Positions 3,692 to 54,829 of a DNA stretch of 64,000 bases are shown one piece after another (position 1 is the stretch's first letter; each line of letters opens with the position of its first letter). Under the pieces are notes generated by a model. That model ran no database searches. It worked only from the letters and a program-made list of their open reading frames with translations, and was not told where the DNA came from. The stretch is from Planococcus plakortidis (GTDB lineage: Bacteria > Bacillota > Bacilli > Bacillales_A > Planococcaceae): NCBI RefSeq assembly GCF_001687605.2, contig NZ_CP016539.2, forward strand, positions 2,138,501-2,202,500, given 5' to 3'. The position numbers and the translations under genes are program-made.

Positions 3692-3874
3692 ATGCAATAT
3701 ATTGGAACACTTTTCTGGTCTGTCCTTATTATTTCCATGTTGAATTATGTAGTAAGTGCCGTGCAAAACGTGCCATTTGATTTCATGATGGGTATCTTTA
3801 TGGCAGTAGCCGTCACTGTATTGGTTATCTTGATGGATGCCATCATCCCGAAAGAAGCAGCGAAAGAATATTAA
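3692..3874 (+). CDS. Small membrane protein, DUF2929/YjzD-like
   Basis: This is a 60-residue protein with two predicted membrane helices (about residues 5-24 and 30-52) separated by a short loop, and a charged C-terminus (KEAAKEY). Size, two-helix layout and the fab/app neighbourhood fit the DUF2929 (YjzD) family of Bacillales, whose function is unknown. The ATG follows GAGGTG, and a strong terminator follows the stop, so it is expressed alone. The family name is recognition from overall pattern only. Confidence 0.7.
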   Translation: MQYIGTLFWSVLIISMLNYVVSAVQNVPFDFMMGIFMAVAVTVLVILMDAIIPKEAAKEY

Positions 3875-3881
3875 TAACGAT

Positions 3882-3914
3882 AAAAAACGGAAGCCCACGT
3901 GGCTTCCGTTTTTT
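3882..3914 (+). terminator. Rho-independent terminator after the DUF2929-like gene
   Basis: A 14-bp perfect stem (AAAAAACGGAAGCC / GGCTTCCGTTTTTT) has a 5-base loop. The T-run makes it work on the plus strand, and it may also work in reverse. Confidence 0.9.
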
Positions 3915-4161
3915 ATTAAAGTGAATCTAATGCTTTTCTAAAGAAGAAAGAACAGAAGCCGTATTTTTCGAAACTTATCGCACGACACCGCAGGCTCGCG
4001 CCCAAGCATTCTCATCCGTTTCGAAAACCTTGTGCTCAATTCTCACTGAGTTCGAGCATCGCAGAAAAAGAGTCGCTCCCGCATCTGCCTGGCAGATGCG
4101 GCGCAAATGAATTCGGTCGTTTCGTCACTTACGCTGCTCATTAATTTTTTTCAGCATTTTG
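3915..4161. other. Non-coding stretch with a perfect hairpin, possible dispersed repeat
   Basis: No reading frame with a ribosome binding site was found here. It contains the near-continuous palindrome CGCATCTGCC-T-GGCAGATGCG at 4080-4100 and a GC-richer, non-coding-looking sequence on both sides. The hairpin has no T-run on either strand, so it is not an obvious terminator. An intergenic repeat family or a structured RNA are both possible. Confidence 0.35.
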
Positions 4162-4190
4162 AAAGCCGCATTTCAATGAAATGCGGCTTT
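4162..4190 (-). terminator. Hairpin downstream of clpB
   Basis: A perfect 13-bp stem (AAAGCCGCATTTC / GAAATGCGGCTTT) with a 3-base loop lies immediately after the clpB stop (4194-4196). The T-run on the minus strand is short, so termination is probable but not certain. Confidence 0.6.
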
Positions 4191-52665: not shown

Positions 52666-52806
52666 TTTCATGAAATTATTCCGATAGAACAATAGGACTA
52701 GTAGTAAGTCCAAATGCTGTAATGATTTGGTTATATTTTTGGTCATTAGGCACTTTTTACCTTTTTTCTCAAAACAAGAGTTATGGAAATAAAAATGCAG
52801 TTTATT

Positions 52807-52835
52807 TTGAAAATTGATGCTATCATAGATTTAAT
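52807..52835 (+). promoter_or_regulatory. Sigma-A promoter of the receptor-peptide operon
   Basis: TTGAAA (52807-52812), a 17-bp spacer and TTTAAT (52830-52835) in an AT-rich stretch, about 150 bp before the receptor ATG. Confidence 0.6.
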
Positions 52836-52906: not shown

Positions 52907-52926
52907 TGGCCAGGGCCGCCTGGCCA
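52907..52926 (+). other. Leader hairpin upstream of the receptor gene
   Basis: Perfect 8-bp GC-rich stem TGGCCAGG / CCTGGCCA with a 4-base loop, inside the 5' leader between promoter and start codon. No T-run follows. It may stabilise the RNA or take part in control. Confidence 0.5.
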
Positions 52927-52993
52927 AGCGGAGGAAAACTCTCCTACATGGATGATTGAAGTACTGCCCATGCAAACGGAAAGGAGAGCGGAC

Positions 52994-54283
52994 ATGGACA
53001 CAGGAATGCGATTGAAATATCATCGGCTGAAAAAACGTTTCAGCATGGAAGAAACTGCATCAGGCATTTTCTCTTCAAAAGAACTGAAAAAAATTGAAGC
53101 AGGCCTGAAAGAACCCGGCCTGAAAGAATTGGAAGCATTGTGCAAAAAACTTGAAATCCCGCTAGCTGCCAAAGATAACCCTATCGGCAAAGTGCTGGTG
53201 AAGAACTTCAAGAATTCATTGCTTCATCCACAGAACAAAGGCAAGATCATGGAGCATTATGCAGACATCTGCAACCATCCTCTCCTGCGCGCTGACGAAG
53301 ACGTGGAACTCGAATTCGATATCCAACAGATCCGCTACTTCATCATCACAGGTGATCTGGAAAGCGCAGAAAAGAAAATCAAAGAGATGGACCGATTCAA
53401 GGAGTTCATGGATCAAGAGCAGTACTACCTGTATCATAAATATAACGGAAACTATAATTACATCTTGAACGATTATGAAAATGCATTGAAAACCTATTTG
53501 ATTGCTGAAAAGATTGCCCCGAAGTCTACATCAGCCGCTGAAATGGGAGATTTATACTATTCCATTGGCATTTCAAGCAATCAATGCGAAGAACATGAAT
53601 TAGCTTTTAAATATTCCGAGCTGGCTTTAAAAATTTACCAGCAGGAGTTCGTTCCTAAACGAATTGTGGAATGTCATTTGAACATAGCGATAACCCATGA
53701 ACACTTCGGAAATTATAAACTATCTCTTGAACACCATAAAAACGCCCTGACTATAGGCAGTAAACTGGATATTGATATCCTTAAGTTCACTACGGAATAC
53801 AACGTAGGATTTTCAAATTTTATATATCAACAATACGAAGAAGCAATTGTTCATTTGGACAATGCTTTAAAGTACATCCCCAATGAATACTTAGCCGATT
53901 GTGTTTCCACATACTGTTTGCTGATTAGAAGTTATTTAGAAACTGACAACAAAGTTAAGGCTAATGAAGCTGTTAAAGCTGGGGCAGAAAAGATTAAGTC
54001 TAAAGATATTGCTTTAGATTCTCCGGCGAACTCTTCCTTTAGAAATGTTTACATGGAATTCATGGCGCTGACCTATTTACTTGAGGGAAATGAAACAGAG
54101 TTTGAAAACATCTTACTTAAGGAGTTAATAAAGACTTTTGAAGAAACAAATAGTTTTCATGATTTAGGATACTATTTTGGATATTTGGGTAAAATATATT
54201 TTAAACAGAGCCGATATAAAGAATCAGCTATCATGTTAGAAAAATCAAAGGATGCTTACAAAGCAGTCCTCAATATTAGTTAG
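52994..54283 (+). CDS. RRNPP-type quorum-sensing receptor (HTH plus TPR repeats, NprR/PlcR-like)
   Basis: This 429-residue cytoplasmic protein has an N-terminal XRE-type helix-turn-helix (about residues 1-65; GMRLKYHRLKKRFSMEETA, then KKIEAGLKEPGLKELEALCKKL) and a C-terminal array of TPR-like helix pairs (about 95-425). Visible TPR motifs include LNDYENALKTYLIAEKIAP, LNIAITHEHFGNYKLSLEHHKNAL and YQQYEEAIVHLDNALKYIP. HTH plus TPR at this length is the layout of NprR/PlcR-like receptors that bind a re-imported peptide and then bind DNA. ATG at 52994 follows AAAGGAG at 7 bases; a GTG-opened frame from 52856 has no site. The gene is AT-richer from about 53450 on than its neighbours. The repeat peptide gene follows after 13 bp. 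Confidence 0.87.
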   Translation: MDTGMRLKYHRLKKRFSMEETASGIFSSKELKKIEAGLKEPGLKELEALCKKLEIPLAAKDNPIGKVLVKNFKNSLLHPQNKGKIMEHYADICNHPLLRADEDVELEFDIQQIRYFIITGDLESAEKKIKEMDRFKEFMDQEQYYLYHKYNGNYNYILNDYENALKTYLIAEKIAPKSTSAAEMGDLYYSIGISSNQCEEHELAFKYSELALKIYQQEFVPKRIVECHLNIAITHEHFGNYKLSLEHHKNALTIGSKLDIDILKFTTEYNVGFSNFIYQQYEEAIVHLDNALKYIPNEYLADCVSTYCLLIRSYLETDNKVKANEAVKAGAEKIKSKDIALDSPANSSFRNVYMEFMALTYLLEGNETEFENILLKELIKTFEETNSFHDLGYYFGYLGKIYFKQSRYKESAIMLEKSKDAYKAVLNIS

Positions 54284-54296
54284 GAGTGAGAATATA

Positions 54297-54773
54297 ATGA
54301 AAAAGAGTATGTTTTTATTATTAGTATCTACTTTTGTAATAAGCACTTTACCAAGCGTTATTGCATCAAGCTCCATAGACGATCTTGCGGTCAAGTCTCG
54401 TATTCCTGAACCTTGGGCTGTCGAAAACCAGCTTGCGGTCAAGTCCCGCATCCCCGAGCCCTGGTCTGTTGAAGACCAGTTCGCGGTCAAGTCCCGCATC
54501 CCTGAGCCTTGGTCCGTTGAAGATCAGTTCGCGGTCAAGTCCCGCATCCCTGAGCCTTGGTCCGTTGAAGACCAGTTCGCGGTCAAGTCCCGCATCCCTG
54601 AGCCTTGGTCCGTTGAAGACCAGTTCGCGGTCAAGTCCCGCATCCCTGAGCCTTGGTCCGTCGAAGATCAGTTTGCGGTCAAGTCCCGTATTCCTGAACC
54701 TTGGTCCGTTGAAGACCAGTTCGCGGTCAAGTCTCGTATTCCTGAACCTTGGTCTGTCAATCCAAAAGCATAA
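54297..54773 (+). CDS. Secreted multi-copy peptide pheromone precursor (eight 16-residue repeats)
   Basis: This 158-residue protein has a Sec signal peptide (MKK, hydrophobic core, likely cut at about SVIA-SSS), a short spacer SSSIDDL, then eight head-to-tail 16-residue repeats, AVKSRIPEPWSVEDQF, with no other domain. The decamer AVKSRIPEPW is identical in all eight; variation is confined to the spacer (AVENQL in copy 1, SVNPKA at the end). This fits a pro-peptide that is exported, cut into several copies of a short signal and re-imported to the receptor encoded upstream. GGAG lies 10 bases before the ATG. The mature peptide ends are not known. A repeat-rich surface or antimicrobial peptide is a less likely alternative. 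Confidence 0.85.
   Translation: MKKSMFLLLVSTFVISTLPSVIASSSIDDLAVKSRIPEPWAVENQLAVKSRIPEPWSVEDQFAVKSRIPEPWSVEDQFAVKSRIPEPWSVEDQFAVKSRIPEPWSVEDQFAVKSRIPEPWSVEDQFAVKSRIPEPWSVEDQFAVKSRIPEPWSVNPKA
54387..54770 (+). repeat. Eight tandem 48-bp coding repeats
   Basis: Units start at 54387, 54435, 54483, 54531, 54579, 54627, 54675 and 54723. Copies 2-6 use one codon set for Ser-Arg-Ile-Pro-Glu-Pro (tcc cgc atc ccy gag ccy). Copies 1, 7 and 8 use another (tcy cgt att cct gaa cct). Inside the core all differences are synonymous. Confidence 0.97.
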
Positions 54774-54791: not shown

Positions 54792-54829
54792 ACCCCTCCC
54801 TCCAATACGGAGGGAGGGGTTTATTTATT
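54792..54829 (+). terminator. Terminator after the receptor-peptide operon
   Basis: Perfect 12-bp stem ACCCCTCCCTCC / GGAGGGAGGGGT followed by TTATTTATT. Confidence 0.92.

Follow-up and report, generated by a model that had tools for sequence, protein, structure and literature searches.

Does a receptor gene followed by a gene for a secreted repeat protein in Planococcus encode a peptide signaling system, and what would such a system gain from its repeats? An earlier note on the window (the whole 64-kb stretch of DNA analyzed here, taken from an assembly consisting of a single 3.26-Mb contig) had read the two genes as an RRNPP-type receptor and a pheromone precursor with eight peptide copies. 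We followed this reading from the layout of the locus to the fold of the receptor, the distribution of the pair among relatives, and the selection acting on the repeats.

A receptor gene is followed by an array of eight repeats

The open reading frames (ORFs) and a terminator scan verified the layout given in the earlier note, with a receptor gene, a precursor gene 13 bp further on, and then a strong terminator (Table 1). The 13-bp gap contains no gene, and the first sizeable ORF beyond the terminator, a Peptidase_C26 gene, lies on the opposite strand. The terminator comprises 12 pairs, 9 of them G-C, and a T-rich tail; terminator-like sites numbered 5 in the scanned stretch compared to 1.8 in shuffles. 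Receptor and precursor are probably cotranscribed, with their transcript ending at this one terminator.

Table 1. Features of the receptor-precursor locus in window coordinates
Feature	Position	Strand	Details	Basis
Conserved upstream block GTTTATTTTGAAAATTGATG	52800..52819	+	Presumed part of promoter or operator	Genus alignment
In-frame receptor extension of 44 codons	52862..52993	+	From GTG 52862; possible long receptor form or translated leader	
Receptor with TPR and putative HTH, 429 aa	52994..54283 including stop	+	ATG 52994, stop 54281-54283; predicted cytoplasmic, RRNPPA type	Pfam, PDB profile, AlphaFold2/Foldseek, N270
Predicted pheromone precursor, 158 aa	54297..54773 including stop	+	ATG 54297, stop 54771-54773	ORF and conserved arrays in the genus
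Sec-like signal peptide MKKSMFLLLVSTFVISTLPSVIA	54297..54365	+		Visual reading of signal and cleavage site
Eight tandem 48-bp units	54387..54770	+	Core AVKSRIPEPW	Tandem Repeats Finder, unit comparison
Intrinsic terminator	54792..54820	+		Terminator scan

The precursor starts with a basic-hydrophobic N terminus which, read by eye, is typical of Sec signals. Its repeats share an identical core, as the earlier note had stated: AVKSRIPEPW is found in 8/8 units and the full 16-mer AVKSRIPEPWSVEDQF in 6/8, unit 1 reading AVKSRIPEPWAVENQL and unit 8 ending in SVNPKA. With a period of 48 and a Tandem Repeats Finder score of 568 (next best row, 113), the array is by far the strongest tandem repeat of the window. 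Searching the whole genome of the strain with the core pattern returned the eight matches of the array and one isolated reverse match, the control also giving one match, and no second array with this pattern was seen there.

The receptor resembles NprR and Rap

At 429 aa and with TPRs present, the receptor falls within the 250- to 500-aa range of RRNPPA receptors. Of the two domains named in the earlier note, the TPR scored above the Pfam cut-off in the window receptor (TPR_12, 4.3e-13), whereas HTH_3 reached 17.6 bits, under the cut-off of 23; HTH_3 nevertheless matched at an E value of 0.01 or better in 12/16 aligned members, window included (best, 5.5e-9). In a PDB search with a profile built from 16 sequences, the best natural match was NprR (8.2e-16 over residues 68 to 416, nearly the whole TPR part). 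Rap proteins came next, Rap3T among them, at 1.3e-13 and weaker, while the top of the list was taken by an engineered TPR protein (4.6e-16) via several short matches.

AlphaFold2 modeled the short form of the receptor with a mean pLDDT of 72.2. Confidence was low in the HTH region, and from residue 161 on the ten-residue means were mostly 73 to 96, with 60 at residues 341 to 350 and 58 at the end. The 26 best PDB matches of this model in Foldseek were all Rap or NprR, at TM-scores of 0.36 to 0.52 over the query length, which is a loose fit, and at 14 to 20% identity; generic TPR proteins such as LGN appeared from rank 27 on. The 50 matches listed from a viral structure library, mostly generic TPR and other proteins, included no Rap or NprR-type name.

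Residue N270 aligned to N227 of RapF and to an Asn of NprR, and N270, N240, R223, and H228 were each invariant in 54/54 rows. In RapJ, Asn225 bonds the backbone of PhrC (PMC3601965). Judging from the two-residue offset in the profile search, RapJ Asn225 would be equivalent to RapF N227, and N270, with its position taken from Rap, would lie on the inner face of the TPR superhelix. Position 237, which a phmmer alignment matches to the Asp of Rap that anchors the Arg of Phr (Asp192 in RapJ; PMC3601965), was never acidic in the 54 rows (R, H, Q, Y, K, or N). This Asp is thus not retained in the Planococcus receptor, so that the binding mode must partly differ from that of Rap. Based on the profile and fold matches to Rap and NprR and on the conserved Asn, we assign the receptor to the RRNPPA type, close to NprR and Rap, in good agreement with the RRNPP-type receptor proposed from the window alone.

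The gene pair is fixed in the genus

The receptor was detected at an E value of 1e-40 or better in 49/261 genomes of the family, distributed over 3/19 genera, and was present in 46/46 genomes of the genus Planococcus. Named relatives sharing the locus include Planococcus sp. A6, P. maritimus, P. maitriensis, P. citreus, P. koreensis, and P. salinus. At least two core units could be read directly downstream of the receptor in 44/46 genus genomes, a count that includes locus L023, from two array ends flanking a run of N, and L024, whose precursor has a frame break within its signal part; the remaining two loci, L050 and L056, are cut by a contig end. The same pair was found in genus g5 (G016 and G017) and genus g12 (G071), as well as at 5/5 paralogous receptors with 28 to 30% identity. 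Relatives of the repeat gene thus co-occur with the receptor in the genus, in other genera, and at paralogues, as the pairing proposed in the earlier note implies. In L060 (G016), the receptor frame is broken; this break and that of L024 reflect either decay or sequencing error.

A YflT-domain gene (Pfam) was located upstream in 45/45 fetched genus loci, the weakest match (31% identity, L057) overlapping that of a second, related neighbor. The Peptidase_C26 gene, which we take to be puuD-like, was located downstream in 30/45 genus loci and also beside L061 of another genus; as the fetched flanks were short, a missing neighbor match is not proof of absence. The locus looks chromosomal and vertically inherited. 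Spo0A was found in 46/46 genus genomes.

Copy number and code vary between species

Fifty-four loci were examined, and 47 arrays passed a strict rule, with 2 to 14 copies (median, 6; the 2 copies of L046, which reaches a contig end, are a lower bound). Unit spacing was 12 to 18 residues, apart from one spacing of 21 residues that spans a run of N. Precursors were longer than 100 aa in 37/47 arrays, and the longest among relatives measured 255 aa. The 47 arrays do not include L050, which is cut, or L054, which has N inside the array, and the strict rule gave no array in 5/54 loci. Despite failing this rule, L023, L024, L060, and L061 show units, and L056 has one unit-like stretch ahead of the contig end. 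In L003/L014, the first unit is degenerate (VVQSHNPEFSSVEDQ) and the seven other units retain the core. The aligned part of the L061 receptor starts past the HTH region, yet this receptor is accompanied by a six-copy MYPPPW precursor. Several drafts (L011/L046, L012/L050, L023, L054, and L056) have breaks or N runs inside or beside the array; assembly breaks of this kind could hide such precursors from automated surveys.

The core itself occurs as SRIPEPW, ARVPEPW, ERLPDPW, EKHPHPW, VIHPNPW, or ILWPQPW, and as MYPPPW in L061. P-x-P-W is its constant part, with the exceptions T-E-P-W (L050 and L057) and P-P-P-F (L060). Among 43 genus rows, the most common 8-mers were of 20 different kinds. Such variation by species would also suit peptides whose main action is extracellular, directed at other strains or antimicrobial, with the receptor serving as a feedback regulator of their synthesis, which the gene order would permit. 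We regard this as very unlikely: no gene lies in the 13-bp gap, the next sizeable ORF beyond the terminator is the Peptidase_C26 gene on the other strand, and RRNPPA receptors are usually highly specific for the pheromones of their own precursors (PMC11343458).

Signaling through the neighboring receptor remains our preferred reading, and the code was compared with the receptor in the same 43 rows. The residue at W-2 (numbered from the W of the core), which is E, D, or Q or H, tracks receptor residues 262 and 266, which are mostly I,T, V,S, and P,D, respectively. These two positions lie eight and four residues before N270. The covariation rests on about two clade-level events, and we take it only as a lead.

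Purifying selection is concentrated on the core of each unit

The motif used to find the units fixed the positions P, P, and W, and these were therefore left out of the following counts. In the 47 arrays, minimal changes at W-5, W-4, and W-2 were 69 synonymous versus 2 amino-acid changes, compared to 138 and 88 at nine linker positions (Fisher p 1e-10 versus core), in counts per codon position that treat arrays as independent although the species are related. W-6 and W+1 were intermediate (17 synonymous and 2 amino-acid changes, and 20 and 3, respectively). Pairwise comparison of W-5, W-4, and W-2 gave a pS of 0.329 and a pN of 0.0012. Furthermore, 45/47 arrays had no amino-acid difference in the core, motif-fixed positions included. 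Purifying selection is thus concentrated on the core of each unit. The near absence of amino-acid change there leads to a predicted pheromone of about [S/A]RIPEPW(S), the selected peptide being bracketed to about W-6 to W+1, which would be SRIPEPWS in the window. A footprint within the array also offers a prediction of the mature pheromone from sequence alone.

These data also bear on whether the repeat protein is a precursor at all. It could instead stay intact after secretion, free or bound to the wall, and be under the control of the upstream gene, as its Sec-like signal, its length of up to 255 aa in relatives, and a match to the Cornifin repeat model that is weak and falls short of the cut-off would allow. 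We consider this highly improbable, given a copy number ranging from 2 to 14, conservation among copies that is strongest on 6 to 8 of the about 14 to 16 residues per unit, single-copy peptides at the same place beside 18/29 distant receptors (manual reading), and the similarity of the receptor to peptide receptors. The earlier note had named an intact surface or structural protein as the outcome that would speak against a precursor, and we found no pointer to one.

If the protein is a precursor, its repeats could still be neutral by-products of slippage, with one copy, for instance the C-terminal one, being the copy that matters. This would be compatible with signaling, and it draws on the free expansion and contraction of the arrays and on the degenerate first unit in one relative (L003/L014). 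We judge it unlikely, because synonymous changes accumulate among the copies while the core remains nearly without amino-acid change, including the 45 arrays without any core difference.

Core DNA identity averaged 0.951 within genomes and 0.769 between genomes, as expected for arrays that are homogenized within a lineage.

A proposed signaling pathway

The gene pair is fixed in the genus, its receptor is like Rap and NprR in profile and predicted fold, and its copy number varies. We hold it to be highly likely that receptor and precursor form a quorum-sensing pair of RRNPPA type that is self-contained and belongs to the Planococcus lineage; very probably, the two work as an RRNPPA signaling system with a multicopy precursor. 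From this we infer a course of secretion, cleavage, import, and binding, as well as a direction and targets of regulation and a role for copy number. The precursor would exit via the Sec pathway and its signal peptide would be removed. Extracellular proteases would then cut the linkers, yielding per precursor up to eight copies of a peptide of 6 to 8 residues, for which we predict [S/A]-R-I-P-E-P-W-(S). Brought back into the cytoplasm by an oligopeptide permease, the peptide would bind to the receptor inside the TPR superhelix, on its inner face, with the conserved Asn270 as contact, and would alter the activity of the putative N-terminal DNA-binding domain. We count against this mechanism that two cuts are needed to free each inner copy.

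The number of repeats would set the peptide yield per transcript, and the signal amplification by eight copies proposed in the earlier note is a reasonable idea. Unequal exchange or gene conversion would hold the copies alike within a genome, so that the whole array could move to a new code together with the receptor. A more far-reaching view, which we put forward tentatively and rate as possible but not probable, is that of a separate RRNPPA subfamily: the polyprotein-like precursor would be ancestral and obligate, repeat number would be an evolvable gain setting, and homogenized arrays would switch code jointly, with receptor and pheromone diverging together, in jumps, from one species to another. 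As part of that view, two translation starts may give rise to two forms of the receptor.

The locus represents a compact, genus-wide natural series, with one receptor lineage in one neighborhood, 2 to 14 copies, and 20 codes in 43 rows. This makes two questions directly testable, namely, the benefit of extra copies and the joint change of receptor and message. The benefit of extra pheromone copies was raised in PMC9765709, and a partial answer comes from PMC11343458, in which both tandem copies are active in two Rap systems.

Comparison with known systems

Like NprR-NprX of the Bacillus cereus group, whose regulatory switch is described in PMC4970707, the locus encodes a TPR receptor, with a putative HTH, and a small secreted precursor downstream. 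The NprR-NprX subfamily is further marked by a dimer-to-tetramer switch driven by the peptide and by binding of Spo0F. Identity to NprR in the Foldseek matches was 17 to 20%. Clusters are assigned when a reference receptor is matched with 30% identity or more across 80% mutual coverage (PMC10075063); the phmmer comparison with NprR, made with the solved chain, which lacks the HTH, aligned only residues 73 to 304 and stayed below this level. Further differences are the core, P-x-P-W here (RIPEPW and relatives) and SKPDIVG in NprX (PMC4970707), the up to 14 copies in Planococcus, and the conserved upstream extension of the receptor frame.

The Rap-Phr systems, including multicopy Phr3T and Phr105, share with the locus the TPR peptide receptor fold, the conserved Asn, and tandem pheromones, but the Phr peptides themselves are different. 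In contrast to the Planococcus receptor, in which the HTH is found in most aligned members, Rap is without a DNA-binding domain. QssR, NprR, and Rap have been placed in one clan of nine-TPR folds (PMC12700828), and Alo systems have been described in Paenibacillus (PMC7425212).

Few copies had been taken as the rule in RRNPP propeptides, and this part of the earlier note did not hold. Large NprX precursors are repeated in 17/17 cases (Table 3 of PMC9765709), and RRNPPA precursors with up to six identical copies (PMC9765709) and up to eight pheromone copies for Phr (PMC11343458) are in print. Eight copies per se are therefore not new. New are the clade of this receptor and pheromone and the finding that it is fixed in the genus, along with arrays of as many as 14 copies and the selection footprint; the diversified P-x-P-W code and the range to 14 copies are among the features that stand out.

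Alpha-factor-type fungal precursors are similar in that several copies of one signal peptide are secreted, which is an analogy only. In fungal mating pheromone systems, the receptor, the processing, and the origin are all different. The likeness to yeast alpha-factor made in the earlier note thus stands as an analogy but not as a novelty, as duplication in Phr and NprX precursors and the parallel with fungal mating pheromones were pointed out in PMC5199041.

The 34 clusters of RRNPP_detector (PMC10075063) likewise consist of a receptor adjoining a small secreted precursor. Candidates there were limited to 10 to 100 aa, compared to 158 aa for the window precursor, and such systems may be missed because of length limits and because assemblies break in repeats. 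The string Planococc- was not found in the main text of PMC10075063, which, taken apart from its supplementary tables, does not prove absence. In the openly licensed literature, exclusive of supplements, we found no paper for Planococcus together with RRNPP and none for RIPEPW, RVPEPW, or PEPWSV.

The receptor frame extends upstream

The frame is open upstream of the receptor ATG in 46/46 genus loci. Over the last 22 codons before this ATG, pN/pS was 0.59 in frame versus 1.00 and 1.12 in the other frames, and the extension holds a conserved NSPTWMIEVLPMQTERR. The extension thus looks coding too. It starts with GTG, ATG, or TTG in 42/43 loci holding GGAGGCGG, among 54 examined. Speaking against a start there are an ACG at this position in L039, L043, L049, and L059 and, in the window, a GGAGG located just after the GTG and not before it. 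The internal ATG of the receptor is conserved and has an AGGAGAG ribosome-binding site. Long and short receptor forms arising from two starts are possible. AlphaFold2 modeled the long form poorly, at a mean pLDDT of 61.6 and with about 30 in the extension.

Block GTTTATTTTGAAAATTGATG was conserved among the rows listed from the genus alignment. We discarded it as a regulon-wide operator, with one exact copy and two sites at 3 mismatches in the genome of the strain (control, 0). The perfect palindrome GGCCAGG-GCCG-CCTGGCC (52908-52925) was likewise discarded as an operator, as it was present in only 1/46 genus genomes, namely, that of the window. Folding of the leader RNA gave a z-score of -1.9, and 11/200 shuffles were equally good. 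Within 75 nt upstream, CTCTCC occurs in 41/46 and AGGAGAG in 45/46 genus loci. The two are complementary (52938-52990), and their pairing in the RNA may mask the start site; they are too constant to be of use in a covariation test.

Multicopy precursors in the wider family

A profile search at class level found relatives of the receptor in 29/398 genomes, 12 of which are the genus and family members already counted. In plasmids, relatives with 22.9 to 25.7% identity were present in 11 records, every one of which carried the name Cytobacillus, Bacillus, Mesobacillus, or Priestia; five of these were fetched. A phage or plasmid origin of the window locus was rejected, since no receptor match was found in phages and the plasmid relatives reached only this low identity. 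A precursor in viral contigs was not confirmed.

By manual reading of the region downstream of the receptor in 29 distant loci, 18 have a single short secreted peptide, 6 have no precursor by the rule used, and 5 have a multicopy precursor. In a tree of 57 receptors, the multicopy label needs five changes and the starred branches force five, with copy labels of the distant rows set by hand and with one of the five changes being L050, whose label was left blank on account of the cut in its array. A single branch with a support of 100/100 unites the rows of Planococcus, g5, g12, and the paralogues. Long branches meet at the join of this branch (program warning) and the root is a midpoint root only, so that gains and losses are not surely separable. 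That expanded precursors arose several times would be the simplest reading.

The repeated peptides of the distant loci include three EPDHPKIV units each in L112, L113, and L115 and, on a separate branch, nine SDNSPGIKSL units directly downstream of the receptor in L118. L100, from a Mesobacillus foraminis plasmid, has six EE[L/F]PPPLAP units in a precursor at 3763-4176. This proline-rich precursor lies beside the receptor and near an annotated nonribosomal peptide synthetase.
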